Shown here: one piece after another, positions 8,378-48,657 of the stretch
Layout: each line of letters begins with the position of its first letter
How positions within the stretch are numbered: the stretch's first letter is position 1
From: Eubacteriaceae bacterium
GTDB lineage: Bacteria > Bacillota > Clostridia > Oscillospirales > Acutalibacteraceae
NCBI GenBank assembly: GCA_021770095.1
Contig: JAETRQ010000014.1
Location: 1-64,000, forward strand
Direction of reading: 5' to 3'
DNA: 64,000 nucleotides
Translations under genes and position numbers: made by a program
The notes under the pieces: generated by a model
What the model was told of the DNA's origin: nothing
The model's database searches: none
Seen by the model: the letters and a program-made list of their open reading frames with translations, nothing else

Positions 8378-8446
8378 ATTATGTCTCATAGTAATAAGCA
8401 TTCAATATGTCTTGCAGAAAGTGGACTTCTATTGCAAAAAATGGCA
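8378..8446 (-). promoter_or_regulatory. Tandem LytTR-type box and promoter (site A)
   Basis: Left box TTGCAGAAAGTGGAC at 8412-8426 and right box TTGCAAAAAATGGC from 8432, 20 bp apart. In the minus direction a -35 TTGAAT (8400-8405) lies six bases after the boxes and a -10 CATAAT (8378-8383) 16 bp further. It drives the 7844-8308 gene. Confidence 0.75.
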
Positions 8447-8465
8447 TATCTCTCATAAGCGTCAA

Positions 8466-8501
8466 AAAGAGGATATTGTATCTTTACACAATACCCTCTT
8501 T
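8466..8501 (-). terminator. Terminator of the RiPP operon
   Basis: A 14-bp near-perfect stem (AAAGAGGATATTGT / ACAATACCCTCTTT) followed by a U-run in the minus direction. It lies 17 bases after the stop of the 8518-9159 gene and closes the operon that begins at the precursor gene. Confidence 0.8.
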
Positions 8502-8517
8502 ATTTAAATACCCTTAA

Positions 8518-9159
8518 TTACTTATACAAAATTTGATTATTATACGCCTTCTCCGCATCACTCTTTCTTAAAGCCTCTCTCATATCTTCCTCTTTTTGAA
8601 GCTTTTTATCCAATATCTCCTGCGATATACGCTTTGCAGCCTGCCGTTTTTCTAAATATTCTTCCAGCAGCTCTTTTTGCTTATCCTTTTTACTGTCACT
8701 TGTCTTTTTATAAAAACTATTTTTTGAACGTATGTCAAATTCCGAATCATAACCAACAGGCCATGAATCCGCCCGATAATCATTTAAAGAACTTCCAACC
8801 GTAATCATAACTGAACAATTTCTTGGGGCATATGAATCTCCCCAATCTCTCTGAACTAAATTTAAAATCTGCTGTTTATATTGCGGATCTTCTTTCATTT
8901 TTTTAAAAGCATCCTCTGATATATTAATCGCCATATTACTAACTGTCCGGTGATTATTTATTCTGGAAAGCTCATCATAAAATTCTTTTTTAAAAACTTC
9001 CAGTTCTTCTTCTGGTGTCATTTGTTCTGTTTTCTCAGTCTCGCTTATCTGTTTTGAAGATAATTCCTTTAAGAACACCTTCTCCTCGTTTTTCCTATTC
9101 CTTGTTTCTGTTACCATACTGCTTTCCCGCAAGTAATTGTTTTGAACCGTCAATGACAT
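8518..9159 (-). CDS. Leaderless hydrophilic protein, DUF6033-like
   Basis: 213-aa charged protein. It starts MSLTVQNNYL, directly after the TAA of the acyl-carrier-related gene, with an AAAGGAG site. A central block (RTVSNMAINISEDAFKKM, then NLVQRDWGDSYAPRN) looks conserved and resembles a Lachnospiraceae family I recall as DUF6033. The C-terminal third is a highly charged coiled coil (KELLEEYLEKRQAAKRI). No signal peptide or membrane segment is present. It is the last gene of the RiPP operon. A similar N-terminal style (a few hydrophobic residues, then Ser/Asn-rich) recurs in other leaderless proteins of this cargo. Function unknown. Confidence 0.8.
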   Translation of the reverse strand: MSLTVQNNYLRESSMVTETRNRKNEEKVFLKELSSKQISETEKTEQMTPEEELEVFKKEFYDELSRINNHRTVSNMAINISEDAFKKMKEDPQYKQQILNLVQRDWGDSYAPRNCSVMITVGSSLNDYRADSWPVGYDSEFDIRSKNSFYKKTSDSKKDKQKELLEEYLEKRQAAKRISQEILDKKLQKEEDMREALRKSDAEKAYNNQILYK

Positions 9160-9160
9160 A

Positions 9161-9427
9161 TTACAATTCTCCTTTCTGTGAGATAATTATTTCTACAATA
9201 TCATTAAAAGTATTAAATCTACGTTCCGCTATTGCTGCTTCAGGAACTTTTATTTTAAATGTATCCTCTACCACTTCCAAAAATGTTATCATTTGATACG
9301 GCTCGACTCCAAATCTCCCTGATAATATAGGATAATTTTTTGCTTCATCTGGTAAAGCATCTATATCTATCTTGAGTACCTCTTTTACAACCTTTGACAG
9401 CACACTACGCACTTGATTTTCCATCAT
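9161..9427 (-). CDS. Acyl carrier-related protein of a peptide maturation system
   Basis: 88-aa helical protein with the acyl-carrier-protein outline: ALPDEAKNYPILSGRFGVEPYQMITFLEVVEDTFKI. The position where true carriers have D-S-L with the phosphopantetheinylated serine reads SGRFG here, so it may not carry a prosthetic group. This combination matches the TIGR04067-type acyl-carrier-related protein that accompanies Cys-rich peptide (Clo7bot) maturation genes; that assignment is from memory of the family set. It is encoded between the TIGR04066-like protein and a hydrophilic partner. Start at 9427 or 9424, after TGGAGG. Confidence 0.8.
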   Translation of the reverse strand: MMENQVRSVLSKVVKEVLKIDIDALPDEAKNYPILSGRFGVEPYQMITFLEVVEDTFKIKVPEAAIAERRFNTFNDIVEIIISQKGEL

Positions 9428-9439
9428 TTAACCTCCAAA

Positions 9440-10543
9440 TTAAAGTGTTTCCATTTCAGCATTATCATTCAAACAATCAATAATGTACTGTCCCATAATT
9501 CCAACACTTGTTTCTGTAAATATTTTTTCTTGTTTATCGGTATCTGACTCTAACTTTATTCTCAAATCTTCTATATCAGATTGCTTCCGTGAAAAATATT
9601 CTATTGGTATGGATCGATTAACAGTAAAAACATCCTGCGCTGTACCGCTTATGTAAAAGCATTCTATATCTGTCATATATTTATATTTTACAATCTGTTT
9701 TATTTCTGTCACATACTTATCTGTAACATTATTTCCATATAAACACATGACTAAAAAATCTGGATTAACAGCATTTAAAATTTCAAATGCATGAATCCCA
9801 AAATAACCAACCTGAAATTTGCTTATAGGCATAATCCCTTCTGGAACTCCCAAAATAATTACTTCTGGTTTCTCCTTTTGCTCAATTTTCTTAATAAAAT
9901 GATTATACAAAATAATCTTTTGTTCCGAAGGAATATTAGTATCCATAAAGCCGGGAAACGTATATGTATTATTTAAAAATACACTATTTTTCCTTGAAGA
10001 AACCAAAACAACATGATACCCTTTTTCTTCCAAATACCTTTTGGTAGATAATTGTACCAAAAATTTATCTGTTTGCTCACCAACACCCGCTACACATATT
10101 ATCGGTGTATATATGTCATGTAAAACCATCGGGCTAATTTCTATATCGGATATTTCACTTGTTTTCATTACATCTATCATATTTCCTGAATAATCTTTTA
10201 CCAGTTCCGAAATTTTATTATATACAGTTTTCTGAACTGCTCTAGCAAGTAATATTTGTTTGTTATGCTTGAGCATATTTTCAATAACCTCATATAGTTG
10301 TCCATCTTGTAATTTATTTAAAGAATCTGTTATCCAAACTGCATCTATTCCTCGATAATCAACTTCCGATAATGTAGTCTGAACCATATAGCCACAAATG
10401 CTTTCTTTTCCCATTGCCCATCCATTAGGGGACAATAAAACTTGAATATTAATATTTTTTAGCATTGAGTTATGCTGCAAATATGGATACATTTCGTTAT
10501 CATAAGGAAATACTGCTACATTTAAAATTTTCTTACTATTCAA
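9440..10543 (-). CDS. Peptide maturation system protein, TIGR04066-like
   Basis: 367-aa cytoplasmic protein that begins at a TTG codon (10543) after AGGGGTG. It has alternating strand/helix segments such as ICVAGVGEQTDKFLVQLSTKRYLEEKGYHVVLVSSRKNS, resembling a P-loop-less nucleotide-binding or dethiobiotin-synthetase-like fold. The gene sits directly downstream of a SPASM radical-SAM maturase and upstream of an acyl-carrier-related protein, the arrangement known for the TIGR04066 family in clostridial Cys-rich peptide systems. Its biochemical role is not known to me; a part in substrate delivery or cofactor handling is inference. Confidence 0.75.
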   Translation of the reverse strand: MNSKKILNVAVFPYDNEMYPYLQHNSMLKNINIQVLLSPNGWAMGKESICGYMVQTTLSEVDYRGIDAVWITDSLNKLQDGQLYEVIENMLKHNKQILLARAVQKTVYNKISELVKDYSGNMIDVMKTSEISDIEISPMVLHDIYTPIICVAGVGEQTDKFLVQLSTKRYLEEKGYHVVLVSSRKNSVFLNNTYTFPGFMDTNIPSEQKIILYNHFIKKIEQKEKPEVIILGVPEGIMPISKFQVGYFGIHAFEILNAVNPDFLVMCLYGNNVTDKYVTEIKQIVKYKYMTDIECFYISGTAQDVFTVNRSIPIEYFSRKQSDIEDLRIKLESDTDKQEKIFTETSVGIMGQYIIDCLNDNAEMETL

Positions 10544-10560: not shown

Positions 10561-11979
10561 TTAGTCAAAATGATACCCGTGTTCTCTTAATACACAATAT
10601 TCCTTTAACTGTATTTCACACGTCAGTTTTACTTTTTCGCAACGCTCCATGCGCTTCTGCGCCGATAATTCATCTCCATCTTCCATACCAGCAGCACACA
10701 GATTGCAAAAATCCCCTGCCCAACAAGTTTTGCACTTATTAGGTGTCAGTTGTGCAATATTCAGTAATTTGTGAACTTTTTCCATATCAAACCCAGTATC
10801 TAAATCACCTAAAACAAAAGCGTTGCAACTTTCATTAACACGTTCACAAGGATAAAATTTCTCATCTACGTTCACAAACAATCTTGTTGCCCCTGCAACA
10901 CAAGCACCCGATGGATGATATACATTGCCACGATTTCCTTTTGCAATAACTTTTTTATGTATATTCTCTTTCATTACTGCGATCTGGGCTTCCATCAACT
11001 TAGATACATATTTTCTATCTAATCGTCCTATCAAATACAAATATGCCTTAAACAACTCATATCTATAATTTGTATCAAAAAGTTCCGAGTAATGGATTTC
11101 ATTTTTTGAACTATTTTGATTTAATGTTGTGGCACCGACTATGGCAGAAGAAATAAAGTCATAAGTAAAAAAATTACTGCTACATTGAAAATCATTCTTT
11201 TCATCCAACACCGCATTAAAACTTATGTTTTCCATATAATCAGGATATTTTTCTTTTATATGGTCAAGTTTACCCATAATTACTTCAAAAGTTCCTTTAC
11301 CACTTTCTGCAAACACCCGACTATTGTCTTGAACATTTTGTGGTCCATCTAAACTAATGGTTAAATTTACGCCATTTTCATATAAAAAATCAACTATTTC
11401 ATCGGTAAGTAATGTTGCATTTGTAGTCATATTATACTTAACTTTCTTACCCTCAAAAACCTTATTAGAATAGTCGATAATCTCACGGATTAATTTTATC
11501 TCTAACAAAGGTTCTCCACCGTAAAAACTAATTAATCCATTCTCCAAATTACTATTATGTTTATGATAAAAATCAACAGCTTTTTTCGCTGTCTCGATTG
11601 ACATTCTCTTTTTAGTATGTACTCTATTTACATATGAGCCTGAATATACACAATATTTACATCTCAAATTACAATTCTGTGTTACTTGTAAAATTAGCTG
11701 ATGAACATTATTTTTCATATAATCTTCTATCTGATCTGCTGCTGCATGCTTTATTTCTATATTTGTATTACAACTTTTTAAAAATCCTTGCGCTTTTAAT
11801 TTTTCTACCTTTTTCATGGATACACTATCCATTTGTGAATAGGCAATTTCCTTTGCAATTATTTTCTCAAGAGTTTTATATAAATTTTCATCAATGCGAA
11901 TAATGGAAGTTGTATTAACATCAAATACATAATATGCTTCTACTGTTTCAAATAACTTTACAAATGGTATTTCGCTCAA
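10561..11979 (-). CDS. ccpM: SPASM radical-SAM peptide maturase (CcpM-like)
   Basis: 472-aa radical S-adenosylmethionine enzyme that probably installs cross-links, likely thioethers, on the Cys-rich precursor encoded just upstream. The CNLRCKYC cluster motif near residue 110 binds the SAM [4Fe-4S], and GGEPLLE follows. The C-terminal SPASM region has many Cys (GACVAGATRLF, YPCERVNESC, NKCKTCWAGDFCNLC) for auxiliary clusters. The frame is open from an ATG at 12000, but a perfect AAGGAGG lies inside that stretch seven bases before a TTG at 11979, so TTG is the likely start. A strong hairpin at 12001-12043 separates it from the precursor gene and may lower its expression relative to the substrate. 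Confidence 0.9.
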   Translation of the reverse strand: MSEIPFVKLFETVEAYYVFDVNTTSIIRIDENLYKTLEKIIAKEIAYSQMDSVSMKKVEKLKAQGFLKSCNTNIEIKHAAADQIEDYMKNNVHQLILQVTQNCNLRCKYCVYSGSYVNRVHTKKRMSIETAKKAVDFYHKHNSNLENGLISFYGGEPLLEIKLIREIIDYSNKVFEGKKVKYNMTTNATLLTDEIVDFLYENGVNLTISLDGPQNVQDNSRVFAESGKGTFEVIMGKLDHIKEKYPDYMENISFNAVLDEKNDFQCSSNFFTYDFISSAIVGATTLNQNSSKNEIHYSELFDTNYRYELFKAYLYLIGRLDRKYVSKLMEAQIAVMKENIHKKVIAKGNRGNVYHPSGACVAGATRLFVNVDEKFYPCERVNESCNAFVLGDLDTGFDMEKVHKLLNIAQLTPNKCKTCWAGDFCNLCAAGMEDGDELSAQKRMERCEKVKLTCEIQLKEYCVLREHGYHFD

Positions 11980-12000
11980 TTTTTCTGCCTCCTTGTACAT

Positions 12001-12078: not shown

Positions 12079-12273
12079 TTAGAATGCCCATCTTCCCTGA
12101 ATTGCAGTGGTTAAACCTTTGGAATAATTCTGCAAATTAACAGTAGAAGATGCTGTCGATGCAGTGCAGTTGTAACACGGAATAGAAGCGCACTGTGAAT
12201 CGCAGCTACAAGAGAATGCTACTAATGTTCCATCCTGAACCTTAGCTTTCTTTCCTAATGTCTTTTTCATCAT
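12079..12273 (-). CDS. Cys-rich RiPP precursor peptide (Clo7bot-like)
   Basis: 64-aa peptide with AAAGGAGG before its ATG-ATG start. The basic leader MMKKTLGKKAKVQDGT is followed by AFSCSCDSQCASIPCYNC with five Cys (residues 22, 24, 28, 33, 36), then a Ser/Thr-rich and aromatic tail ending GRWAF. Such a peptide next to a SPASM radical-SAM enzyme, a TIGR04066-like protein and an acyl-carrier-related protein fits the Clo7bot precursor family, although only five Cys are present. It is probably processed by the subtilase and exported by the ABC protein encoded upstream. It has its own tandem-box promoter (site B), implying quorum-controlled expression. Confidence 0.88.
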   Translation of the reverse strand: MMKKTLGKKAKVQDGTLVAFSCSCDSQCASIPCYNCTASTASSTVNLQNYSKGLTTAIQGRWAF

Positions 12274-12334: not shown

Positions 12335-12404
12335 AATTTATCAAAAACAAAACAAATTTCAATCCCCCTTGCAGAAAGTGACCTTATTTTGCAGAAAACG
12401 GCAC
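12335..12404 (-). promoter_or_regulatory. Tandem LytTR-type box and promoter (site B)
   Basis: Boxes TTGCAGAAAGTGACC (from 12369) and TTGCAGAAAACGGC (from 12389), 20 bp apart. A -35 TTGAAA and a -10 TAAATT (12335-12340) follow in the minus direction with a 16-bp spacer. It drives the RiPP precursor operon. Confidence 0.8.
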
Positions 12405-12450: not shown

Positions 12451-14157
12451 TCAATCCGCTTTTTCCATCATAATATTTAATTCATCATTTTTTCCGATCA
12501 GCTCATCATATGTTCCTATACCATCAACCACTCCTTCTTTCAGCACAACAATTTGATCCACTTTACTCAATATCTCTTTTCTATGTGTTATCACTATCAC
12601 TGTTTTTTCTTTCAGTTTCGTATTCAGCAGTTTATTAATCTGCTTTTCTGAATAAGCATCCGTGTTTGAAGTGGCTTCATCAAATATAATAATCGGCTTA
12701 TCATACACCAATGCCCTTGCAAGGGCTATTTTCTGCTTCTGCCCGCCAGAGAGCATTGCCCCGTTCTGCCCTACCACATAATCCAGGGAAACCTCCTTTA
12801 TAAAATCTTCCAGTCCACTGTCCTTGCAGGCTTCCTCTATCACAGTATCGTCTATCTGTTTATACAGGCAGATGTTATTCCTTATTGTATCATTAAAAAG
12901 GTATATTTGCTGGCTAACCACAGATACCATGTCCCGATATTCTGACAATGACAGATCTGAAATATTCTCTGTTCCCAGTAATATCTTTCCATTTTCCGGC
13001 TCATACATTCTGATAAGAAGGTTGATGATTGTTGTCTTTCCCGAACCATTACGCCCGATTATAGCCGTCTTACTTCCTTTGGCAAACAAAATATCAATGC
13101 CCTTTAAAATGTATTTATCTTTTTCATATGCGAAAGAAACCTGTTTCATCTTCAAATCATTCAGACACAGATCTGCGGTCTTTTCGGTATCCGTTTCTTC
13201 CTCTAATTCCATAAAGGCGTAATATCTTTTCGTTGACGGAATAATCCCTGATAAAAGGTATCCTATATTAAGGATTGCAGAAATCGGTCCTGTAACATAT
13301 GCGCTGTATGTAATGAACGCAAATACGCTGCCCACCGAAAGCTGCAAATCAAACACCAGATTTGCGCCCAATATATATAACAGTGTAGAGAGAAGTTGTA
13401 CCATGATATTATCTATAATCATATTCCACTGGCTTAACATATTCATCTGTTTCTGTTTCTCAATAATGTTATTCTGATTATATGTAAATTCCTGATGCTT
13501 TTTATCAAAGATATGAAACAGCTTTACTTCCCGTACCCCTCCAACAGTATCCCCAAACCATCTCGCATATTCTTGATTCCTTTGTATAAACTCATCCATA
13601 ATCTGTTTTTGCTTCTTGGCAAAGTATTTCATTACAACGCATTTAATCGGTATAAACAACAACACTAATACCGTCATTTTGAAATCTATAATAAATAACC
13701 CGATTATGCCGCCTGCCATGCTGAACGCCTGTGTAACCACAAAGAAAACGCTGCTGTCAGCAATAGATGTCATTTGGTTAATATCTGTGTTGATATTATT
13801 CAGAGTCTCCGCATAATTAGTGTTATTGAAATAATTTATTCGTAGCTTCATAAGATGTGAGAAAGACTGTTCCGAAAGAAAATACTGTATCTTTGCTGAA
13901 ATGTCTACACGCTTTTTCTCCTTAATTATGTCTATAAGGGAATTTATCGTGTATATTACCATAGATGCCAAAACCAGCTCAATCAGCAATTTCTTATTGC
14001 CACCGATAAAACCATTATCCATGATCCGCTGGCTGATTAGCGGTACACAAAGATTTAATCCTGTAGAAATAAACAAGCAACAGACAATAGCAATTATAGT
14101 TTTTTTGTATCTGTTCAATAACAGAAGCAATCTCTTTACAGCCTCTTTATTATCCAT
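12451..14157 (-). CDS. ABC exporter for the Cys-rich peptide
   Basis: 568-aa half-transporter of the type I exporter family. Five to six hydrophobic segments (about residues 20-310) are followed by an ATP-binding domain with GRNGSGKTT (Walker A), LSGGQKQKIALARAL (signature) and IIIFDEATSNTD (Walker B). It has no N-terminal C39 peptidase domain, so leader removal is probably left to the adjacent subtilase. The start at 14157 has GGAGG six bases upstream and lies inside the end of the subtilase gene, suggesting coupled translation. Position beside the RiPP genes points to export of the mature peptide; this is inference. Confidence 0.9.
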   Translation of the reverse strand: MDNKEAVKRLLLLLNRYKKTIIAIVCCLFISTGLNLCVPLISQRIMDNGFIGGNKKLLIELVLASMVIYTINSLIDIIKEKKRVDISAKIQYFLSEQSFSHLMKLRINYFNNTNYAETLNNINTDINQMTSIADSSVFFVVTQAFSMAGGIIGLFIIDFKMTVLVLLFIPIKCVVMKYFAKKQKQIMDEFIQRNQEYARWFGDTVGGVREVKLFHIFDKKHQEFTYNQNNIIEKQKQMNMLSQWNMIIDNIMVQLLSTLLYILGANLVFDLQLSVGSVFAFITYSAYVTGPISAILNIGYLLSGIIPSTKRYYAFMELEEETDTEKTADLCLNDLKMKQVSFAYEKDKYILKGIDILFAKGSKTAIIGRNGSGKTTIINLLIRMYEPENGKILLGTENISDLSLSEYRDMVSVVSQQIYLFNDTIRNNICLYKQIDDTVIEEACKDSGLEDFIKEVSLDYVVGQNGAMLSGGQKQKIALARALVYDKPIIIFDEATSNTDAYSEKQINKLLNTKLKEKTVIVITHRKEILSKVDQIVVLKEGVVDGIGTYDELIGKNDELNIMMEKAD

Positions 14158-15592
14158 CTTCATCCTCCGTCAGCTTTTTTTCTATAATATGATATATTTC
14201 ATCAATCTCTTTCCTGTCAAGCAATCCTGATATTCTTTTCTCAGCCTTTTCATTTTCAAAAGAAAATCTAGCCAAAATATTTTCTCCCTCATTGCAAAGG
14301 TTAATCTCTACATCACAATCAGGATACACTTTCAAAAATTTCTCCTTATCGTCCAATGAAACACACCATATTACCAAATCACTTTGTTTATAAAACACCT
14401 GACTTTCTATAAAAGTTTTCCATGCCTCATAATCTGCCACAGGCTCCGGCATATATTCTAACCCATACAGTACACATTCAGGCTCCATTTTTATCGTGTA
14501 TGCATTGTAACCATCACGGGCAAATGCCCTTTTTAATTCAGTAAGTATGTAAAAACTGTCTATTGCAGCTTCGATTGCCAATATCACTACCGGAACCTCA
14601 AGACCATTTCCCTGATAATGATTGTTCAAAATCTGCTGCCGCCTAATTTCCCCGCTCCAAAAGAACCCCTGCACATCTATATTATAAATATCCTCTTTCC
14701 CAAGATATATTACATTCTTGTTTTTTATCTCAAGACTTTCCAAATCAGCCACAGAGCAAGCTATTACGGTATCGACTTCCTCTCGTATTTCGCTAAATTC
14801 TCCCGAAACCGTTTCAAAGTAATAATCTGCTCTGCTCGTTTTCTTCCTGCCTGTTACATAAGCCTTATAAACCCAGTCTGGTTCATACACTCCCCCAACC
14901 ATTTCTGTATGGCTTTGCTCTCTTGCATAGTCCTTCAATTTCTTTATGTCGAGCGTTTTATCTATGCTCAGCCTGTCTGCAATCAAAGCACATACATATG
15001 GTGCTGCATAACTGTTACTCAATGATGTTTTAATCTCTTTATCAAAAAATTTAACCATATGTTCAGACGGAACAATAGTATCAATCCCCATTTGCAAATA
15101 ATCTTCGGAATAACTTAAAGGACTGCCTGTTGTTGCCACACCGATTACATTCGTAAAACTAGCCGGATATGATACGAATCCTGAATTTGCCGTTGCTGCC
15201 ACAATAATCATTCCATTATATACATACTTATTGACCAATTTTTTAAGCTTCTCACACTCATTAAAATTCGTAGTTCCGAAACTCAGATTGACAACCCCTA
15301 TATTGTTCTGATAACACCATTCAAGGGCAGGTTCTATCTTTTCAATCCCGCCTTTCCCAGTTTTATCCAAAATTCGTACACTATCCAATATGCAGTGAGA
15401 ATTATATTTTTCAACAATCAATGCACAGAACGTCCCATGTTGAAAATCCGTAACCCGAATTTCGTTTTTATCTTCTATACACCTGTTGTTTTCATCTATA
15501 ACTATTTGCGCCTGTATTTTTTCTTTGCATATTAGATCTCTGTTTATTCCATTATCAATAATAGCTACTCTAACTTCTCTCAAATATCTCAT
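14150..15592 (-). CDS. S8 subtilisin-like peptidase of the RiPP island
   Basis: 480-aa subtilase. The catalytic triad is visible: Asp13 in AIIDNGI, His52 in QHGTFCAL and Ser194 in SNSYAAP, with oxyanion Asn136 in ATANSG. It begins directly with the catalytic domain, without signal peptide or propeptide, so it probably works inside the cell. The C-terminal half (about residues 240-480) contains DTVIACSVADLE and an ILAIEAAIDSFYILTELKRAF segment unlike typical subtilases; I do not recognise it. It is co-transcribed with the exporter from tandem-box site C. A role in removing the precursor leader before export is the natural reading. Confidence 0.88.
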   Translation of the reverse strand: MRYLREVRVAIIDNGINRDLICKEKIQAQIVIDENNRCIEDKNEIRVTDFQHGTFCALIVEKYNSHCILDSVRILDKTGKGGIEKIEPALEWCYQNNIGVVNLSFGTTNFNECEKLKKLVNKYVYNGMIIVAATANSGFVSYPASFTNVIGVATTGSPLSYSEDYLQMGIDTIVPSEHMVKFFDKEIKTSLSNSYAAPYVCALIADRLSIDKTLDIKKLKDYAREQSHTEMVGGVYEPDWVYKAYVTGRKKTSRADYYFETVSGEFSEIREEVDTVIACSVADLESLEIKNKNVIYLGKEDIYNIDVQGFFWSGEIRRQQILNNHYQGNGLEVPVVILAIEAAIDSFYILTELKRAFARDGYNAYTIKMEPECVLYGLEYMPEPVADYEAWKTFIESQVFYKQSDLVIWCVSLDDKEKFLKVYPDCDVEINLCNEGENILARFSFENEKAEKRISGLLDRKEIDEIYHIIEKKLTEDEDG

Positions 15593-15679: not shown

Positions 15680-15750
15680 TTTATAACAAAAAATCCTAAA
15701 ATACAATTAGACTTGCAGAAAACGGTTCTCTATCGCAGAAAATGGACACT
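15680..15750 (-). promoter_or_regulatory. Tandem LytTR-type box and promoter (site C)
   Basis: Boxes TTGCAGAAAACGG (from 15713) and CGCAGAAAATGGAC (from 15734), 20 bp apart. A TTGTAT -35 and a TATAAA -10 follow in the minus direction. It drives the subtilase/ABC exporter operon. In this copy the order of the ACGG and ATGGAC variants is reversed compared with the other sites. Confidence 0.75.
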
Positions 15751-15884: not shown

Positions 15885-16379
15885 CTATTCTAAAATATAA
15901 GTTATTATCATTTTAGGTCTTGAATATTTTGTACCCCCGATAAATGCTGAACCAAGACTCGGAGATGCAATATTGGTTCCTGTCATATACACAGACCATG
16001 TTCCGGCAGCTTTTTCCGCAATAAATAGATTTGTGGTAGTCACATTCCCCCTGCCCCAACCAACAGTATGCGTTTCCCCACTAGGGCAGGTTATTGTTAG
16101 GCTCTGTGCCAATATCGCTCCTTTTCCACCGATTACAGATGCATTGGAGCAATCAATTTTAACTTCTTTTACAATCGCATTATCCGGCAGACCGCTAAAA
16201 TTGAAAGTAACTGTATTGGAATCCCCTGTAACTCCCGGCATCAATGCAATCGACATATCTTTATTTGCCGACTTTGTTTCCGGGCTTGCTGCAAACGCTG
16301 TTACCTGTGAAGCAAATAACATTGTGAATACCAAAGCAACTGCAATTATTCTCTTTACTTTCTTCATTGACTTTACCAT
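15885..16379 (-). CDS. Secreted small beta-rich protein
   Basis: 164-aa exported protein. The start at 16379 (MVKSMKKVKR) is chosen for its nine-base spacing from AGGAGG. A signal peptide (basic start, hydrophobic core IIAVALVFTMLFASQVTAFA, likely cleavage after AFA) precedes a mature domain of alternating beta strands with LTITCPSGETHTVGWG and AAGTWSVYMTGTN. This pattern of a PSG turn and a GxWxxxxxG strand faintly recalls the P-domain of proprotein convertases, as in the protein at 39958-40425; low confidence. It forms an operon with the leaderless gene upstream, driven by site D. Function unknown. Confidence 0.8.
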   Translation of the reverse strand: MVKSMKKVKRIIAVALVFTMLFASQVTAFAASPETKSANKDMSIALMPGVTGDSNTVTFNFSGLPDNAIVKEVKIDCSNASVIGGKGAILAQSLTITCPSGETHTVGWGRGNVTTTNLFIAEKAAGTWSVYMTGTNIASPSLGSAFIGGTKYSRPKMIITYILE

Positions 16380-16437
16380 AATCATATTCCTCCTGTCTGT
16401 CAAATTCCCCTTATATACATTTGCTGAATTACATACT

Positions 16438-16905: not shown

Positions 16906-16975
16906 AATATAAACGATTCTGAAAAGATTATCAATATCCTTTGCAGAAAATGGACTCTTTGAGCAGAAAACGGTC
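16906..16975 (-). promoter_or_regulatory. Tandem LytTR-type box and promoter (site D)
   Basis: Boxes TTGCAGAAAATGGAC (16941) and GAGCAGAAAACGGTC (16961), 20 bp apart. A TTGATA -35 and a TATATT -10 (16906-16911) follow with a 17-bp spacer. It drives 16875-15885. Confidence 0.8.
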
Positions 16976-17262: not shown

Positions 17263-17402
17263 TCGTCTCTTTCCTTTCTGGTGGTATAACTTCTTATCCG
17301 TAATTTCATATAACTGATATGTTAATTTTAACTAATGTATACTTAATTAGTCAAACAGTTTGTGTCTACTTATTATGACACTTTTCGACAGGGAGGTAGA
17401 AA

Positions 17403-18471: not shown

Positions 18472-18492
18472 ATCAGGTTCCTCCTATCATTT

Positions 18493-20153: not shown

Positions 20154-20161
20154 AAATCCCC

Positions 20162-40618: not shown

Positions 40619-40690
40619 ATAATAGCAAATTATGGTTCAAGGTCAATTCCCCTTGCAGAAAGTGGACTGTTTTTGCAGAAAACGGCACAA
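40619..40690 (-). promoter_or_regulatory. Tandem LytTR-type box and promoter (site G)
   Basis: Boxes TTGCAGAAAGTGGAC (40653) and TTGCAGAAAACGGC (40673), 20 bp apart. A TTGACC -35 and a TATTAT -10 (40619-40624) follow with a 16-bp spacer. It drives 40425-39255. Confidence 0.82.
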
Positions 40691-40793: not shown

Positions 40794-40943
40794 TTAATCC
40801 GCTTTCCGCTTCGGTCTTTTCGGCTGGTGAGTAATTCCCCAACAAATCGGGGGATCTCCCCACTCATCTCTTCTAACTTCATTACGGACAATCCTCTCCG
40901 CCACCTTGAGTGCCATTTTTTTAATCTTCCTGTTTTTCTTCAT
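40794..40943 (-). CDS. agrD: AgrD-type autoinducer peptide precursor 2
   Basis: 49-aa pheromone precursor. A basic amphipathic helix (RKIKKMALKVAERIVRNEV) precedes a core with a single Cys34 (DPPICWGITHQPKRP) and a charged tail KRKAD. The C-terminal HQPKRP matches the HQPKQP of AgrD1 and suits recognition by AgrB. Start 40943 has AGGAGG at ten bases; its ATG overlaps the agrB2 stop (ATGA). The one-Cys core differs from that of system 1, so the two pheromones should be distinct. Confidence 0.88.
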   Translation of the reverse strand: MKKNRKIKKMALKVAERIVRNEVRRDEWGDPPICWGITHQPKRPKRKAD

Positions 40944-41524
40944 TTTACACATACCTCCTGTTTTATAATTTTTGCCAAACACATCAAGAATGCACATAAT
41001 ATAATAGCCGCCGACATATAGCCAATATACAAAATATCAGCTTTCAAATAAACTAAAGCAACAAGTATCATTACTTCCATTAAAACCAGCAATCTCGCCG
41101 CTTTCTTAGACTCTTGCAATTCACTCTTGCTCATATCCATATTAGGGTGATTTATTGTCCCCATTATGCAAATCAAAAGCATTGCAAGAAACAGCATTGT
41201 ATACATAACAGTCTGATTTCTGCAAAGTATAGGTATGATTGGCACAAGCACACTATAAATTATAACTGTTCCTAGATAACACTGCCAAAACTTATTCGCA
41301 TGAAATCCCCCTGTCCGTTTCCTCAAAGAAAGGAAAAAAACAATAAAACAAATAGTGGGTAAAAATTGCCTGAATATCACTCCTAAAAGCAGCATAGTTC
41401 CAACTGTTATTGCATGTTCAACCATACCTATTAATGCATATTCATAATATTCACAGCTTGCTTTATTTATTATCTTCTCCATTTCCATTTGATTAACGAG
41501 CTTTAATACCATGTTTTCTATCAT
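40940..41524 (-). CDS. agrB: AgrB-like pheromone-processing peptidase 2
   Basis: 194-aa membrane cysteine peptidase. LSLRKRTGGFHANKFWQCYLG holds the catalytic His and Cys of the AgrB family, among about five membrane segments. It should process AgrD2, whose gene overlaps its end by four bases. AAGGAG precedes the ATG. The operon starts at tandem-box site H only 23-92 bases upstream, implying positive feedback. Confidence 0.93.
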   Translation of the reverse strand: MIENMVLKLVNQMEMEKIINKASCEYYEYALIGMVEHAITVGTMLLLGVIFRQFLPTICFIVFFLSLRKRTGGFHANKFWQCYLGTVIIYSVLVPIIPILCRNQTVMYTMLFLAMLLICIMGTINHPNMDMSKSELQESKKAARLLVLMEVMILVALVYLKADILYIGYMSAAIILCAFLMCLAKIIKQEVCVK

Positions 41525-41546: not shown

Positions 41547-41616
41547 AGTATGAATTATATATGGAAAAAATCAAGTTGATTTGCAGAAAACGAACATTTT
41601 TTGCAGAAAACGGCAA
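41547..41616 (-). promoter_or_regulatory. Tandem LytTR-type box and promoter of agrBD2 (site H)
   Basis: Boxes TTGCAGAAAACGAAC (41581) and TTGCAGAAAACGGC (41601), 20 bp apart. A TTGATT -35 and a CATACT -10 (41547-41552) follow with a 16-bp spacer. A better TATAAT lies too close to the -35 to fit the module. Confidence 0.82.
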
Positions 41617-41651: not shown

Positions 41652-42950
41652 TCACGCAGGAATAATAATTGAAAAGAAAAATTCCTTATTCTTATCTTCA
41701 ATGACATATGAGCCGCCATACTTCTCAATACTTTTTAACACATTTTTGATTCCTACACCATGCTCATCAACGTTTGTGGTTTTTGTAGATTTTATCTCAC
41801 CATTTTCGTATTTTACATCGTAATTAAATGTGTTTTTAACTGCAATAATTGTCATGTCATCTTCTTTAACAAACTTGAACTTTATAACCTTTTTACCCTC
41901 ACAAGTCTCGCACGCTTCAATGGCATTGTTCAAAAGATTGGAAAGAATAGTAACCACATCCTCATCTTTTATTTTCAGTTCTGAAAGGTCATTTACCCTG
42001 AACACAAAAACAATTCCCTTTGCATCTGCCTCCTGATACTTCGTATTAAGTATGGCATTTACTATTACATTATTAGTGTTAATGGTATCTGGTTCATTAT
42101 TCAAAGAACCGTTAATCTTTTTCACATATTCCTCTAATTTGGAATACTGCTTTTTATCCAATAAGGATTCAATACATGAAATCTGATTTTTATACTCATG
42201 TGTCTTTTTCTTTTGATTATCAAAATTTTCAGAAATAGACTTGTACATTTCCAACTGATCTCTTGCCTGAATTTGAAAAACCTTATTTTCATGCATCTTC
42301 ATTTCTCTTTCAACAATATCATTGATGAGATAGAATACAATGATATTCATTCCAACCATTCCAAATGCAATGATAGCCAGCAAATTTGCCTGCTCTACCG
42401 TCTGTATATATTCAAAAACAGATAACATTGCCGAAATAGATACTATAGTAAAAACAGGAAAAAACAGAAATCTTAACCATTCTGTATCCAACATCATCTC
42501 CATAGACTTTTTTCCAAATTTTTTCCTTATGACAAGAATAATAAAAAACAGTGTAACTTTCCCTAATAGATATACCAAATTACGCCCAATTACATACTGC
42601 TGTCCTAGTAGCTCACTATCCAAAGGTATCCATCTACTAATCAGATAAATCAGATAATCCAATGCCAGCAACAGTGCATCAAACAGTATAGCCAATACAA
42701 TAGATTTTCTTAGACTGATTTCAATATGCCAAAGCATAAAAATTGAAACTGTCAAAATGATAGCAATCTGCCTTATTACAAAATGTCCAGAAAAGCTATA
42801 TGAAAGAAAACATATGCTACCGAGCAACAACACAAACTGTAGTATATTGATCCAGCCTTTATATCGTATTTTCCCAAATGTCTCAAAAAAAATCTTACAA
42901 CACATTAATTCAATAAACATCAACAATATACTCTGCATTAACTCAAACAT
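41652..42950 (-). CDS. agrC: AgrC-like sensor kinase 2
   Basis: 432-aa kinase. Six hydrophobic segments fill the first 215 residues. A helical linker (MKMHENKVFQIQARDQLEMY) leads to the GHKL domain with KTHEYKNQISCIESLL (phospho-His), LSNLLNNAIEACE (N-box) and EHGVGIKNVLKSI. It should sense the AgrD2-derived peptide. The start ATG directly follows the TAA of agrA2, with GGGAG upstream, so the kinase and regulator are coupled. Confidence 0.93.
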   Translation of the reverse strand: MFELMQSILLMFIELMCCKIFFETFGKIRYKGWINILQFVLLLGSICFLSYSFSGHFVIRQIAIILTVSIFMLWHIEISLRKSIVLAILFDALLLALDYLIYLISRWIPLDSELLGQQYVIGRNLVYLLGKVTLFFIILVIRKKFGKKSMEMMLDTEWLRFLFFPVFTIVSISAMLSVFEYIQTVEQANLLAIIAFGMVGMNIIVFYLINDIVEREMKMHENKVFQIQARDQLEMYKSISENFDNQKKKTHEYKNQISCIESLLDKKQYSKLEEYVKKINGSLNNEPDTINTNNVIVNAILNTKYQEADAKGIVFVFRVNDLSELKIKDEDVVTILSNLLNNAIEACETCEGKKVIKFKFVKEDDMTIIAVKNTFNYDVKYENGEIKSTKTTNVDEHGVGIKNVLKSIEKYGGSYVIEDKNKEFFFSIIIPA

Positions 42951-43676
42951 TTACACTTCTCCCTGACACGCTATAAACTTTTTCTTGACTTCCGTATATC
43001 TTACCTTTGGTATGGGCAGCTCCACCCCATTTGTCAATATCACTTTATACCGGGCAACATTCTTAATGCATTTTACATTTACAAGATAGCTCTGGTGTGT
43101 CCTGATAAAACCATTCTCCGAAAGCATATCGTCCATCACATTTAATATTTCATACATGGTATAGACTATTTCATCGTCCTCCATAACATGAAACTCAAGT
43201 CTATGCAGATTACTTTCGATATACAATAGTCTATCCAGCACGATTTCTTTTCTGCCCTCTTTAAAGTCAAATTTTCTTTTTATCACAGAATAATTCATCT
43301 TATCAATAATGGCATCCATACATTCATTGACATTGCTCTGAAAATTGGCATTACCCTTTAACAAATATCTTACAACATCTAATCGGTATCCTTCCAGCGA
43401 ATAATCCACATATGCAGTCACGAATACTATAAATACTTCCCGGCTTACTTTTCTGATCATCTCAGCCGTCTTAATACCATCAATTTTCTCCATATTTATG
43501 TCTAAAAACACGACCGTATAGCGCACTACCCCGACACCTAATTCTACCAGTGCCTCCCCGGAGCTATATGTATCTATTTCATAAATAAGATCATTTTCTA
43601 TCATGTAGCCGGAGATCAGTTCTTTTAGTTCTTCTGTAAAAAGATTTTCATCATCACATATTGCAATTTTGAACAT
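42951..43676 (-). CDS. agrA: LytTR response regulator (AgrA-like) 2
   Basis: 241-aa regulator and the best candidate to bind the TTGCAGAAA boxes. The receiver domain has MFKIAICDDENLF and TVVFLDINMEKIDG (phospho-Asp), and the LytTR domain has VLDRLLYIESNLHRLEFHVM ... FIRTHQSYLVNVKCIKNV. The start at 43676 follows a strong GGAAGGAGGAG; the frame is open to 43757 but has no site there. Its own promoter (site I) and that of agrBD2 (site H) both contain the boxes. Confidence 0.94.
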   Translation of the reverse strand: MFKIAICDDENLFTEELKELISGYMIENDLIYEIDTYSSGEALVELGVGVVRYTVVFLDINMEKIDGIKTAEMIRKVSREVFIVFVTAYVDYSLEGYRLDVVRYLLKGNANFQSNVNECMDAIIDKMNYSVIKRKFDFKEGRKEIVLDRLLYIESNLHRLEFHVMEDDEIVYTMYEILNVMDDMLSENGFIRTHQSYLVNVKCIKNVARYKVILTNGVELPIPKVRYTEVKKKFIACQGEV

Positions 43677-43837: not shown

Positions 43838-43907
43838 ATTTTATTTTTCTTTAGCACATTAGTCAACTGAATTGCAGAAAACGACCATATTATGCAGAAT
43901 TTGACAC
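43838..43907 (-). promoter_or_regulatory. Tandem LytTR-type box and promoter of agrAC2 (site I)
   Basis: Boxes TTGCAGAAAACGACC (43872) and ATGCAGAATTTGAC (43892), 20 bp apart; the second is degenerate. A TTGACT -35 and a TAAAAT -10 (43838-43843) follow with a 17-bp spacer. Confidence 0.78.
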
Positions 43908-44044: not shown

Positions 44045-44803
44045 ATGAAGATTCAAGACCTAAACATTTCTGCCGCTTCTAAATCTGCCTTGAAGAGTAT
44101 CGGCTTGACAATGGTTTCAGAACTTGCAGGACAAAACTACATTACCCTGATAAATAAATTCCCCAAGAATTTTAATATTGAACCTCTGATTGACGAATTG
44201 AACGCTTTAGGTTATCTACTGCCACCCAGTAACGAAATATCCATCTATGATATCCCCATGTCTAAGCGATTGCAGAACGCCCTTGTGCGAAATGGTGTTA
44301 TGTACCTTTCGCAGCTTGCTTCTTATCCCAAAGAAGATATTCTACATTTCCGAAACTTGGGACAAAAGACCATCTTAGAATTGGAACAAATTTGTCAGGA
44401 ACACGACATAGAATTACGATCCATATTATCTATTAAAGAATATTTTGATAAATACCAGTTGCCCTCAAAAATTTACCCCCTGCTGTTCCAAAACAATATA
44501 TCCTGTTTAGATGATTTTAGACACATGACAGCAAATGACTTATACCGTATATGTCAGGAAGATTACAGCCTTACCATGCAGTCCTATTATATTTTGAAAG
44601 ATAATGGAATTGTATTTGACGACTGGCAGGATAAGTACATTTTTGAGATTCTGCCTGAAAATAATGCTACCCTGCTTTGGAAAAAATACAAAATTAGTAT
44701 GCTTTCACAAATGCCTGACTGTAGTGAATATACACTAAAGGAAACCATTTCATCTTCTTATTCATTTACAGCGGCTATGAAAGAATTATTATCAAATGGA
44801 TAG
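44045..44803 (+). CDS. RNA polymerase alpha-CTD-like repeat protein
   Basis: 252-aa protein. The segment at about 75-130 (IYDIPMSKRLQNALVRNGVM ... FRNLGQKTILELEQIC) closely follows the RNA polymerase alpha C-terminal domain, with its helix-hairpin-helix DNA contact. The first 60 residues (LNISAASKSALKSIGLTMVS) look like a divergent second copy, and later segments (YPLLFQNNISCLDDF...; TLLWKKYKISMLSQMP) suggest further degenerate ones. It lacks the assembly domain of true alpha. It may act as a DNA-binding adaptor or decoy for activators. Unlike its neighbours it reads on the plus strand, and its promoter (TATACT at 43988) has an upstream GTTTTAGTCCA motif. Confidence 0.82.
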   Translation: MKIQDLNISAASKSALKSIGLTMVSELAGQNYITLINKFPKNFNIEPLIDELNALGYLLPPSNEISIYDIPMSKRLQNALVRNGVMYLSQLASYPKEDILHFRNLGQKTILELEQICQEHDIELRSILSIKEYFDKYQLPSKIYPLLFQNNISCLDDFRHMTANDLYRICQEDYSLTMQSYYILKDNGIVFDDWQDKYIFEILPENNATLLWKKYKISMLSQMPDCSEYTLKETISSSYSFTAAMKELLSNG

Positions 44804-45501: not shown

Positions 45502-46188
45502 TCAGCTCCGAGCCTGCGCCTTCTGGATATTATCTGACCAATATTTACTGCTAAAGAAATTGCCATTTCTAGGCAAGTTTCTAAACATATCCATGACAAT
45601 ATCATATGATAAGCCGGATGTATCCACAAACATCTCTTTCCCGTCTTTAGATTTAACTGCAATTCCATTATCGCCCACATATGCAACCGTATTGTCGTCT
45701 AATTGCTGTATTAATCCCGTCATTTCTGCGAATTTCTTTAGTGCGAACTCACCGGATTCTTCACAAAGTTTCCAGAACTTTTCTGCATCCTCACCTACCA
45801 TATATGGGTATTTCCCATCTCTAACAAACCATGAGATACCTGTTTCTGAATCCGTGTATTTAGGATCTGTTAATGCCCACTCGTTCAAAGGAACCCCCTT
45901 ATAATACACGGTCATCTTTCCGCTAGAATTATTGCTCATTTCTGATTCATCATTTTGAACATCTTTCTTAGCAATTTCATCCTGCCCCTGTTCATACCCT
46001 CTAGTTGATGCATTTGATTTTAATGCCTCATATATTCCTTGAACATCAGCATATTTATTAGCTTCAGCAACGTCTGGTTTCTCCAACACTTCCTGTTGCT
46101 GAAAAGCCTGTGTCTGGCTATACTTTGAATCAGTTCTTCTCCCTGTATAAATACTATTATTTACAGAGGTATTTATCATATTGACCAT
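45502..46188 (-). CDS. Leaderless hydrophilic cargo protein
   Basis: 228-aa protein starting MVNMINTSVNNSIYTGRRTD after GGGAGG. No signal peptide. The middle has MTVYYKGVPLNEWALTDPKY then ISWFVRDGKYPYMVGEDAEK, a pattern I recall from uncharacterised Lachnospiraceae proteins. The C-terminal half is compact and mixed alpha/beta (FAEMTGLIQQLDDNTVAYVG). It is second gene after the secreted protein 46336-46881, separated by a large hairpin region. It carries a conserved 3' element after its stop. Function unknown. Confidence 0.8.
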   Translation of the reverse strand: MVNMINTSVNNSIYTGRRTDSKYSQTQAFQQQEVLEKPDVAEANKYADVQGIYEALKSNASTRGYEQGQDEIAKKDVQNDESEMSNNSSGKMTVYYKGVPLNEWALTDPKYTDSETGISWFVRDGKYPYMVGEDAEKFWKLCEESGEFALKKFAEMTGLIQQLDDNTVAYVGDNGIAVKSKDGKEMFVDTSGLSYDIVMDMFRNLPRNGNFFSSKYWSDNIQKAQARS

Positions 46189-46335: not shown

Positions 46336-46881
46336 TTATTCCGCATAAGCAGCAGACAGAATATAACCTACCTGTGAAGATCCAACGGAATACAACTCAT
46401 AATAAAAATGGTATTTCACACCTGTCCTAACGCCTGTAAATGTTAATGTATATGAATCGTTTGCATAATTGGCAATCTTTACCTCAGCGCTGGAACCATC
46501 ACTTCCTTTCAGTGTAATTGATCCCTGAAGATAATCGGTGCCACTTTCATTAGGCATATAAACAAGCAGGCATAATTTTGTTACACTTGAGTTATTAATG
46601 GTATAAGTATAATTTCCATTGAATACACCACTTCTGGAGTTGCTTCTTGTAATAGTTCTATTTGCATCATACTGAACAGTATCCGCAAGAGCAACTACAT
46701 CATCATTTTCATAAGCCGGCGTTACAATAAGATCGCTGCAATCATTTACTTCTATTGCCTTGTTTGCATTAGGCGTAACCTGCCCTGTAATCGGAATTTC
46801 ACTTGCAAACGCAGTAGTTCCCATTGCCAAGCATAACATCAGACTCACTACCAGTGCCTTTAAACTTTTAAATTTCTTCAT
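46336..46881 (-). CDS. Secreted small beta-rich protein
   Basis: 181-aa exported protein. Start 46881 (MKKFKSLKALVV) follows AAAGGAG; signal core LVVSLMLCLAMGTTAFA, cleavage near residue 28. The mature part is beta-rich: NRTITRSNSRSGVFNGNYTY ... LCLLVYMPNESGTD ... SYTLTFTGVRTGVKYHFYYE. It looks like an immunoglobulin- or fibronectin-like fold, by pattern only. It is first in an operon with a leaderless protein. The promoter is tandem-box site K, with a leader of about 240 bases. Confidence 0.8.
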   Translation of the reverse strand: MKKFKSLKALVVSLMLCLAMGTTAFASEIPITGQVTPNANKAIEVNDCSDLIVTPAYENDDVVALADTVQYDANRTITRSNSRSGVFNGNYTYTINNSSVTKLCLLVYMPNESGTDYLQGSITLKGSDGSSAEVKIANYANDSYTLTFTGVRTGVKYHFYYELYSVGSSQVGYILSAAYAE

Positions 46882-46951
46882 CTTAAAATCTCCTTTCAAA
46901 TTAATATGACATCAAATTTTGTTCCAACAAGTTTGTTTACTAAGAATATAT

Positions 46952-47125: not shown

Positions 47126-47196
47126 ATATTACCTACCCAAAAAAAGATTTTCAATATGCCTTGCAGAAAGTGACCTGTTTTTGCAGAAAATGACCA
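47126..47196 (-). promoter_or_regulatory. Tandem LytTR-type box and promoter (site K)
   Basis: Boxes TTGCAGAAAGTGACC (47161) and TTGCAGAAAATGACC (47181), 20 bp apart. A TTGAAA -35 and a TAATAT -10 (47126-47131) follow with a 17-bp spacer. It drives 46881-45502 after an unusually long leader. Confidence 0.8.
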
Positions 47197-47284: not shown

Positions 47285-47300
47285 AAATAAACATAGAAAT

Positions 47301-47355
47301 CATATGATTCTTCTGTCAGTCAGAACCAAGCTGCTCTCTCCTACGGAGTCCTAGT
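47301..47355 (-). ncRNA. Conserved 3' element, copy 3
   Basis: Matches copy 2 at nearly every base over about 53 positions and copy 1 more loosely. Minus strand: CTCC-GTA-GGAG hairpin and GGTTCT-GACTGACAGA-AGAATC hairpin. It lies about 35 bases after the stop of the 47389-47928 gene. Alternative reading DSVGESSLVLTDRRII-stop, with a stop codon immediately before it. Confidence 0.55.
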
Positions 47356-47388
47356 TTTCTGTTTCACCTATGTTTACATGCCAAAGCC

Positions 47389-47928
47389 TTATTTATACCT
47401 ACTATTTGCACTTGTCAAATTAAGATAAGTATCCATACTTTTCATCCAAAGCAACGATAAGTCAAACTTTCCCAATTTCTTTAGATCTTCTATGCTTTTT
47501 TTAAACATTGAGATAAAATCCCTTCTGTCATTAAGTCCCATATTACCAGCTTCAAGCGGCAAAGACGTAAAGCCACCTTGCTTTTCCACCTTGTAGTGTG
47601 CTTCCAATGCACGCATTTCAACTACCGTAGCGTTTGATGGATTAACATCGTTTATATAAATTTTTCTTTCAAATTCTTTTCCGTTTTCATCCACACCTTT
47701 AGCTAACACCACAGGATTTTCATCTGTTGATTCATCAGCATATTTAAGGCAATAAGAAAGACCTGTACCATTACCTCCTGTCCACAACATATTATCTGTC
47801 GTGAATATCTGATATACTTTTGGCGTTTCAACCGCATTAAATGTCCTTTCTTCAGGAGCTTTGGTACTACTGCTTTTCTGTTGACCATACAATGGAGCTA
47901 CTGCATTTAAGCCAGAACCAATGTGCAT
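47389..47928 (-). CDS. Leaderless hydrophilic cargo protein, paralogue of 7844-8308
   Basis: 179-aa protein starting MHIGSGLNAVAPLYGQQ after TTGGAGG. No signal peptide. The block from DENPVVLAKGVDENGKEFER to VNPSNATVVEMRALE aligns with the 7844-8308 protein (DSENPV ... ER ... VDPKNCDTAEMYAY). The C-terminus is helical (DRRDFISMFKKSIEDLKKLG). It follows the secreted protein 47977-48468 by 48 bases and shares its promoter L. Function unknown; the preserved pairing suggests that leaderless and secreted partners act together. Confidence 0.82.
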   Translation of the reverse strand: MHIGSGLNAVAPLYGQQKSSSTKAPEERTFNAVETPKVYQIFTTDNMLWTGGNGTGLSYCLKYADESTDENPVVLAKGVDENGKEFERKIYINDVNPSNATVVEMRALEAHYKVEKQGGFTSLPLEAGNMGLNDRRDFISMFKKSIEDLKKLGKFDLSLLWMKSMDTYLNLTSANSRYK

Positions 47929-47976
47929 ACTTCTGTTCCTCCAATCAGCCTCAAAATTTCTTTATAATACCTTGCC

Positions 47977-48468
47977 TTAATTTTTTCTGAATACACATGA
48001 AAAGGATTTCTCTCCATATGGAAAGTTGGTAGATCTAAATCTTGTAGCAAATGTATAATCGCCGGGAGCTGTTATTTTTCCGCAATCATACCAGTAATAA
48101 AAACCATCCGCACCATTACCCGAAATTATAAATGGCTGTTGCTTAAACCACGAAATACTTCTGCCGTTAAAAGTTGTAGTATCACTTCCATAACCATAAA
48201 CCTTAATGATCACACAGTAGTTTCCATTATCTAACAAACCATGATCATAAAGCTCGATTTTGGTTACTTGTGGAGCCGGACCGTCACCAGACCACCACAA
48301 AGGACTAATCCCATCATCATTATCCTCAATAGCCACCGTCATTCCGTCTACTTTTGTCAACTCAGGAATTTCATTTTCACTTTCTGCTGCGAACGCCATT
48401 GTACCCATCCCCATTAACATGGTTAATGCCAATGCAAACGCTAAACAATTTTTAATTTTTTTTAACAT
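47977..48468 (-). CDS. Secreted small beta-rich protein
   Basis: 163-aa exported protein. Start 48468 (MLKKIKNCLAFALALTMLMG) follows AGGAGG; signal cleavage near AFA-AES (about residue 27). The mature part has IPELTKVDGMTVAIEDNDDG, then strands TKIELYDHGLLDNGNYCVII and ITAPGDYTFATRFRSTNFPY with several Trp and aromatic residues and three Cys. No known family recognised. It is first in an operon with the 47389-47928 protein, about 120-190 bases behind site L. Confidence 0.8.
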   Translation of the reverse strand: MLKKIKNCLAFALALTMLMGMGTMAFAAESENEIPELTKVDGMTVAIEDNDDGISPLWWSGDGPAPQVTKIELYDHGLLDNGNYCVIIKVYGYGSDTTTFNGRSISWFKQQPFIISGNGADGFYYWYDCGKITAPGDYTFATRFRSTNFPYGEKSFSCVFRKN

Positions 48469-48586
48469 ACTCTTATACCTCCTAATATTTTTTATTTTTT
48501 CTATTATATATAGCACATTAACGATTATATTTATTACAAAATCCCCCCTTCATTCTTATATTTAATATGCTACATAGAACAAAAAA

Positions 48587-48657
48587 ATCATATCAAATAT
48601 TAATGAAAAGAGAAATCCCCCTTGCAGAAAGTGTCCCGTTTTTGCAGAAAACGACCA
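48587..48657 (-). promoter_or_regulatory. Tandem LytTR-type box and promoter (site L)
   Basis: Boxes TTGCAGAAAGTGTCC (48622) and TTGCAGAAAACGACC (48642), 20 bp apart. A TATGAT -10 (48587-48592) follows; the -35 is weak (TTTCTC). It drives 48468-47389. Confidence 0.8.

Follow-up and report, generated by a model that had tools for sequence, protein, structure and literature searches.

The DNA considered here (the window) covers 64,000 bases of contig JAETRQ010000014.1, which is 66,962 bases long, from a genome assigned to Eubacteriaceae bacterium (assembly GCA_021770095.1). Judged by gene families and gene order, it makes up the greater part of an integrative conjugative element (ICE) that is collinear with elements in three Lachnospiraceae genomes. 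The cargo of this element is interspersed with eleven paired repeats upstream of candidate promoters, and the question raised by the locus is which regulator binds these boxes and which functions of the element it commands. An earlier note on this DNA had assigned them to one peptide-pheromone regulon run by the LytTR protein encoded at 42951-43676, here named AgrA2. In our opinion the 11 boxes are very probably binding sites of AgrA2 in an ICE-borne agr-type pheromone regulon activating the cargo.

Paired boxes and their confinement

All eleven pairs listed in the earlier note exist. Read along the genes, each consists of two copies of TTTCTGCAA, one base being altered in some of them, at a period of 20 bp, in the layout TTTCTGCAA-N11-TTTCTGCAA. 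The listed positions correspond to real sites, but the one given at 34391 starts at 34390, and the word that the sites share is not TTGCAGAAAAYGG but TTGCAGAAA[AG][CT]G[GA], from which several single units depart. Exact TTGCAGAAA-N11-TTGCAGAAA pairs account for 6 of the 11 (expectation 0, from 100 shuffles). In the information profile the unit G.C[AG].TTTCTGCAA occurs twice and is followed by an invariant T at the -35 position.

A matrix derived from the window scores its weakest site at 39.5, compared to 12.3 for the next best place and a maximum of 15.2 in 50 block shuffles. With leave-one-out scoring each site stays within the top 11 of the window (22.6-62.7). A 44-column matrix constructed from the sites of relatives recovers exactly the same 11 (37.6-64.6, everything else at most 8); since the window matrix had itself served to locate these relatives' sites, the agreement shows consistency and is no independent discovery. 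All 11 sites are wholly intergenic and lie on one strand; for 44-mers drawn at random from the window, the frequency of falling entirely between genes is 0.12, given the hand-chosen gene list used for this test.

The direct repeats are about two helical turns apart and directly upstream of the -35 position, as expected for a LytTR-type pair. Counted from the first base of the gene-proximal unit, TTG begins at 15 bp in seven sites and at 14 bp in one (43872), and it is missing at the -35 position of sites 34390, 36987 and 48622. The best -10-like hexamer within a search range of 14-20 bp lies 16 bp further in seven sites and 17 bp in four. Among 100 distinct sites of relatives, TTG is found at 15 in 66 and at 14 in 17, and is missing in 17.

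In the whole 2.39-Mb genome the pattern has 13 matches with at most two mismatches, the 11 window sites and two poorer matches on other contigs (C3 and C50); the latter two were found by mismatch count, the matrix scores covering the other sites. The outcome that the earlier note had named as refuting its reading, hits equally frequent throughout the genome and not upstream of genes, was not observed: apart from the two poorer matches the hits are restricted to the element, and the 11 sites are intergenic. One or two TTTCTGCAA pairs with at most one mismatch were observed in 26 of 299 other genomes of the same family, one of them exact (G229), compared to 2 genomes for the reversed pattern. 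As the best matrix score in the 28 loci around these pairs (L009-L036) is 16.1, we do not regard them as sites of the present type, despite their excess over the control.

Some departures from the paired layout were observed. A single unit at 45190, near an XRE gene, has no partner at 20 bp and scores below 8. Triple tandem units replace pairs in four loci of relatives (L041, 6453-6516; L059, 6281-6344; L065, 9751-9814; L068, near 9751), and those of L065 and L068 sit before agrAC.

The candidate regulator and its rivals

The signalling genes, all on the minus strand, are agr-type by family. AgrA2 (42951-43676) matches Pfam LytTR and Response_reg, and AgrC2 (41652-42950) is a GHKL sensor kinase by family match. 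AgrB2 (40940-41524), the candidate propeptide protease and exporter, matches Pfam AgrB above the cut-off (9.5e-32) and contains GGFHANKFWQC at residue 72, a GGxHA-5-C pattern that we take to be the motif of the AgrB family. The adjacent open reading frame (ORF) 40794-40943, which had no match in a Pfam search, encodes the candidate propeptide AgrD2, with a central cysteine and a conserved tail. In an alignment of 14 AgrD sequences, C34, a glycine two residues later and the tail HQPKRPK are invariant. The predicted five-residue ring preceding the tail, its extent set by analogy, varies at positions 2, 4 and 5, with 11 different rings (CWGIT in the window; CIGIG, CSGIF, CLGIY, CMGIG, CLGIS, CSGFF, CFGIG, CSGLT, CAGIW and CAGFF).

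The box is nearly constant across the 100 distinct sites, while the pheromone ring and the promoter flanks vary. As relatives differ in the ring but share the DNA site, cross-talk at the DNA could arise between two such elements residing in one cell. A possible case is Roseburia hominis (G325, locus L070), where two AgrA2-type regulators (52% and 53% identity) are encoded on contigs C81 and C146, each with boxes.

A scan of 84,980 genomes with AgrA2 yielded 66 loci. Sites scoring above 14 with the window matrix were found in 31 of 35 loci of close relatives (L040-L074, 41-95% identity) and in none of the 32 loci of distant LytTR proteins (L075-L106; at most 33% identity, leaving aside the short partial matches L099, L100 and L105). 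The reversed-sequence control gave no sites in all 67 loci. In the 28 of 35 carrier genomes that were searched whole, the 20-base pattern with at most two mismatches has 155 matches, compared to one for the reversed pattern, and 27 of the 28 genomes have at least one match. In Eubacterium plexicaudatum ASF492, with a contig of 6.35 Mb, all ten matches fall within 46 kb (940,024-985,578), and agrA2 is located at 944,845.

Among 397 Lachnospiraceae genomes, 45 have a box match with at most two mismatches (5 for the reversed pattern), and 45 encode an AgrA2 homologue (E at most 1e-35, 31-95% identity). All 12 genomes with a perfect site are AgrA2-positive (Fisher test, 1e-12); they include ASF492, which was the centre of the draw, and four genomes already known from the AgrA2 scan. 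Over all matches with at most two mismatches the overlap is 16 of 45 (3e-6). Both values ignore shared descent, and several of the genomes are incomplete assemblies. Finally, nearly all aligned relatives of AgrA2 have an I[PS]K.RY-like stretch near the end of the LytTR domain, in a region that presumably contacts bases. The scan of IMG/VR with AgrA2 yielded one weak relative (31%) with no site above 10. Of 149 other genomes from the family of the window genome, two have a homologue at E at most 1e-30 (35% and 33% identity).

Several observations count against AgrA2 as the regulator. In four of the 35 AgrA2-type loci no site was scored: both units precede agrAC in L046 but stand farther apart, and nothing exceeds 8 in L060, L061 and L073, the genome of L061 having no match at all. 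Sites with at most two mismatches are absent from 29 of the 45 AgrA2-positive genomes, including G644 (60% identity) and G496 (53%). Conversely, 29 of the 45 site-bearing genomes have no AgrA2 homologue at the above threshold; most of these have a single two-mismatch match, but G625 holds a convincing site with one mismatch. Two perfect-site genomes, G338 and G402, hold only 39% identical homologues, that of G402 on another contig. On the whole, the co-occurrence of boxes with homologues of AgrA2 supports this protein as the regulator of the 11 boxes, as the earlier note had proposed.

A different regulator encoded on the element might occupy the boxes instead, the main candidate being the LytTR protein AgrA1 (31194-31937), or AgrA1 and AgrA2 might bind them jointly. 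AgrA1 resides on the same element, where the box-controlled gene 33845-34258 abuts agrB1, and its orthologues (90-94% identity) share a locus with boxes in L045, L048 and L055. However, of the 36 genomes that encode an AgrA2-type regulator, 22 have no AgrA1 match (E at most 1e-40), among them the box-rich genomes G303, G306, G321, G323 and G324; some of these genomes are incomplete assemblies. It therefore seems dispensable, and we rejected it as the box regulator. Moreover, AgrA1 shares 30% identity with AgrA2 and diverges from it towards the C terminus of the LytTR domain, lacking the above stretch. Altogether its involvement is unlikely. Even less likely is that the boxes are mostly relics of one promoter cassette copied together with each cargo operon, with no present co-regulation. 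In favour of this reading, the cargo comes in modular operons that vary from element to element, and paralogues occur among the secreted and leaderless proteins of a single element. However, the 11 window sites are 70% identical over the 44-mer, while the upstream and downstream flanks (30% and 33%) are close to random stretches (28%). Cassette duplication was rejected on this ground, as it is the site and not a promoter cassette that has been kept; besides, the same positions are fixed across the 100 distinct sites of relatives.

The sign of regulation could also be the opposite one. AgrA of Staphylococcus aureus represses bsaA, but it does so when bound downstream of the promoter (PMC4227749), whereas a pair upstream of the -35 element occupies the activator position of VirR and AgrA (PMC2838878, PMC4227749). 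We consider repression by AgrA2 highly improbable.

Activation by AgrA2 would then proceed as follows. AgrB2 would mature AgrD2 and export it as a small cyclic peptide with the predicted ring CWGIT; AgrC2 would sense the peptide and phosphorylate AgrA2. We infer that a dimer of AgrA2 binds the two units, spaced by 20 bp, right before the -35 element and thereby switches on promoters of the sigma-70 type. The agrAC2 and agrBD2 operons would provide autoinduction. A ribosomally synthesized and post-translationally modified peptide (RiPP) with its exporter and protease, several pairs of secreted and leaderless proteins, an operon with an extracytoplasmic function (ECF) sigma factor, and a 137-residue protein would be switched on simultaneously. 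The conjugation and recombination genes, having no box, would stay outside pheromone control.

The second agr set, agrA1-agrC1-agrB1, occupies 31194-33848 on the plus strand. On the opposite strand, ORF 30443-30610 resembles agrD and encodes CMYCLHQPKQP. The box-controlled gene 33845-34258 is convergent with agrB1 and overlaps its end by 4 bp, so that antisense transcription from this gene could give pheromone 2 an influence on agr1.

Upstream of agrA2, TG[TC]CGAA occurs at a distance of 63-84 nt in 24 of 31 loci of relatives (L040-L071 except L050). This presumably resembles a Spo0A box, and a link to sporulation is possible.

The conjugative element and comparison with known regulons

The earlier reading of this DNA as a conjugative element was borne out. 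Three tandem large serine recombinases (113-5063, minus strand; two with Pfam matches, the third by homology) mark one end and are collinear in relatives. At the other end, the region 48717-64000 (minus strand) contains, by family matches, genes for a DUF6674 protein, a SpoVG-domain protein, a methylase-helicase of 2,872 residues, an MT-A70 protein and an NlpC/P60 protein, and has no boxes in the matrix scan. A VirB4-like protein (TraG P-loop, 3.3e-10) is encoded at the contig end, just past the window. The order from the VirB4-like gene to DUF6674, cargo, accessory gene and recombinases is the same in three Lachnospiraceae genomes, G301, G302 and G306, the methylase-helicase being in separated pieces in the first two. 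In these genomes a VirD4-family gene, split into two pieces in G302, precedes the VirB4-like match by 5-9 kb; the contig of the window has none. The G+C content is 35% in the cargo and 50% in the conserved core.

All 31 sites scoring above 20 in the scanned stretches of these three genomes (12, 13 and 6, respectively) lie between DUF6674 and the recombinases, and none lies in the conjugation module; positions 120,000-126,799 of G306 and 100,105-104,999 of G302 fall outside these stretches. With the boxes of the scanned stretches restricted to the cargo zone, it is seemingly the cargo and not transfer that the pheromone commands. This differs from pCF10 and ICEBs1, where conjugation itself is controlled by a pheromone.

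The host of the element is uncertain, as the contig has no chromosomal flank and the nearest relatives of AgrA2 (95% identity) come from Lachnospiraceae; the contig may have been mis-binned.

Two known regulons are close in kind, that of VirR in Clostridium perfringens, which we take to be a LytTR regulator like AgrA2, and that of BlpR in Streptococcus pneumoniae (Blp), whose pheromone is a linear peptide, whereas the one predicted here is a cyclic peptide of the agr type. The VirR boxes are pairs of direct repeats placed right before the -35 element, on one helix face and with fixed geometry, and the predicted targets are variable accessory genes, chromosomal and three plasmid-borne (PMC2838878). 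The system also comprises an Agr-like signal and the VirS/VirR pair (PMC2838878, PMC7492741). However, the box sequence and the targets differ, and in the window the regulator, the signal genes and all good boxes reside on one ICE, whereas the VirR targets are distributed between the chromosome and plasmids. The Blp regulon also has paired repeats before each target promoter, but it comprises five promoters, of which one lies outside the cluster (PMC4739728), compared to 11 promoters on the ICE serving a RiPP and secreted or leaderless proteins. The agr system of S. aureus (AgrBDCA) has the same four components by family and paired repeats upstream of its promoters (PMC4227749); the window differs from it in the split agrAC and agrBD operons, the box and the cargo.

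The earlier note had suggested that a dense regulon on a conjugative element was undescribed. Our literature search, limited to open-licence PMC papers, found no ICE-confined regulon of this sort, but LytTR regulons with paired repeats and plasmid-borne VirR targets are already in print (PMC2838878, PMC4739728), and clusters for cyclic lactone autoinducers are reported to be the kind of gene cluster most often transferred horizontally in the human gut (PMC12806405). As far as these searches show, the kind of regulon is known, while the confinement to an ICE, the modular cargo and the unknown protein families are new. The families DUF3879, DUF6033 and DUF4885 are named in no paper of the same literature, and the boxes provide them with a testable regulatory and secretion context. 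More generally, the box is a DNA signature that lists candidate direct targets of agr-type systems in uncultured gut Lachnospiraceae without experiment. Antimicrobial and secreted-protein genes could probably travel and be switched on together on such elements.

Cargo genes behind the boxes

The targets named in the earlier note (agrBD2, agrAC2, the RiPP precursor, the exporter-subtilase operon and secreted-protein operons) were all correct. The boxes, supported by the matrix scores, lie on the minus strand. Box H (41571-41614) precedes agrB2-agrD2, and box I (43862-43905), with the -35 element one bp nearer, precedes agrA2-agrC2 and would provide autoregulation. Box B (12359-12402) precedes a RiPP precursor of the CLI_3235 family (12079-12273, minus strand; TIGR04065, 32.8 bits, cut-off 26). 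It is followed in the same direction by the radical S-adenosylmethionine maturase CcpM (10561-12000; TIGR04068, 551 bits, cut-off 500) and ORFs 9440-10543, 9161-9427 and 8518-9159. The precursor, the maturase and a TIGR04066 protein exceed the curated cut-offs; the acyl-carrier-like protein of the cluster is below its cut-off (TIGR04069, 55.8 against 70). Box C (15703-15746) precedes a subtilase (14150-15592) and an ABC exporter (12451-14163). Box E (34380-34423) precedes 33845-34258, encoding the 137-residue protein, and a similar gene lies behind a box in four loci of relatives. Box F (36977-37020) precedes genes for an XRE protein (36255-36602), the ECF sigma factor (35566-36189) and an alpha/beta-hydrolase (34428-35585).

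The other five sites precede operons of small signal-peptide and/or leaderless proteins: box A (8402-8445), leaderless 7844-8308; box D (16931-16974), leaderless 16438-16875 and signal-peptide 15885-16403; box G (40643-40686), signal-peptide 39958-40425 and the DUF3879 protein 39255-39908; box K (47151-47194), signal-peptide 46336-46899 and leaderless 45502-46188; box L (48612-48655), signal-peptide 47977-48516 and leaderless 47389-47928. The region 17047-33848, with transporter and two-component genes, a lanthipeptide synthetase and the agr1 set, is box-free in the matrix scan; the LanM synthetase and a peptidase-type ABC exporter are encoded there at 25035-29884 on the minus strand.

Across loci, the ORF caller placed a same-strand ORF within 450 bp of 103 of 125 sites; inspection of the remaining 22 was not exhaustive, and four window ORFs overlooked by the caller were added by hand. 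Signal peptides were called by a crude hydrophobicity rule, and the counts below leave aside clusters of agr, RiPP, transporter or regulator genes as well as ORFs that were doubtful or off topic. Signal-peptide proteins are often paired with leaderless ones in box operons. Among the 43 of 47 leaderless proteins included in the Pfam scan and alignment, there are five DUF6033, four DUF3879, three DUF4885 and one FlxA protein, the others having no convincing Pfam match. The signal-peptide protein 39958-40425 is predicted to be a beta-sandwich (mean predicted local distance difference test, pLDDT, 81). The best PDB matches of this model are furin chains (query-based template modelling score 0.54-0.58, best E 3e-5), presumably matched in their P-domain; a sub-threshold P_proprotein match was found in Pfam, and lower-ranked PDB matches are FlhE, Ena fibres and plant-virus capsids. 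The model of the DUF3879 protein 39255-39908 is of low confidence (mean pLDDT 49).

The flagellar export gate FlhA is encoded in 211 of 397 Lachnospiraceae genomes. It is present in each of the 42 genomes with DUF6033 and each of the 6 with DUF3879 (130 genomes searched for either family), and in 42 of 45 AgrA2-positive genomes compared to 169 of 352 others (p = 1e-9, shared descent ignored). Among the carrier genomes searched, FlhA is present in 15 of 19, the genome of the window being one of the four without it. The motif D.V.IS, which we take to be FlgM-like, was rejected as a common export mark: it occurs in 4 of 47 leaderless and 4 of 49 signal-peptide proteins and is not enriched. Flagellar export of the leaderless proteins is thus a lead only, and they could equally be immunity or structural partners. 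Tentatively, and with considerable doubt, one may imagine a family of gut ICEs in which the 44-bp site is a plug-in socket. Any operon acquiring it would join an inducible arsenal independent of transfer, and leaderless proteins of the DUF3879, DUF6033 and DUF4885 types would leave through the flagellar type III apparatus of the host. If so, the element would couple quorum sensing to a delivery route borrowed from flagellated hosts and missing in the window's own genome.

Two minor features accompany the boxes. A gene divergent from agrAC2 (44045-44803, plus strand) encodes a protein with the C-terminal domain of the RNA polymerase alpha subunit that could be a co-activator; it has homologues in 16 loci of relatives, and a paralogue of about 50% identity lies behind its own box in seven loci. 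A hairpin with a T-rich tail (36865-36898, minus strand) lies about 50-80 nt past the predicted start of the box-F transcript and is a possible attenuator or small RNA.

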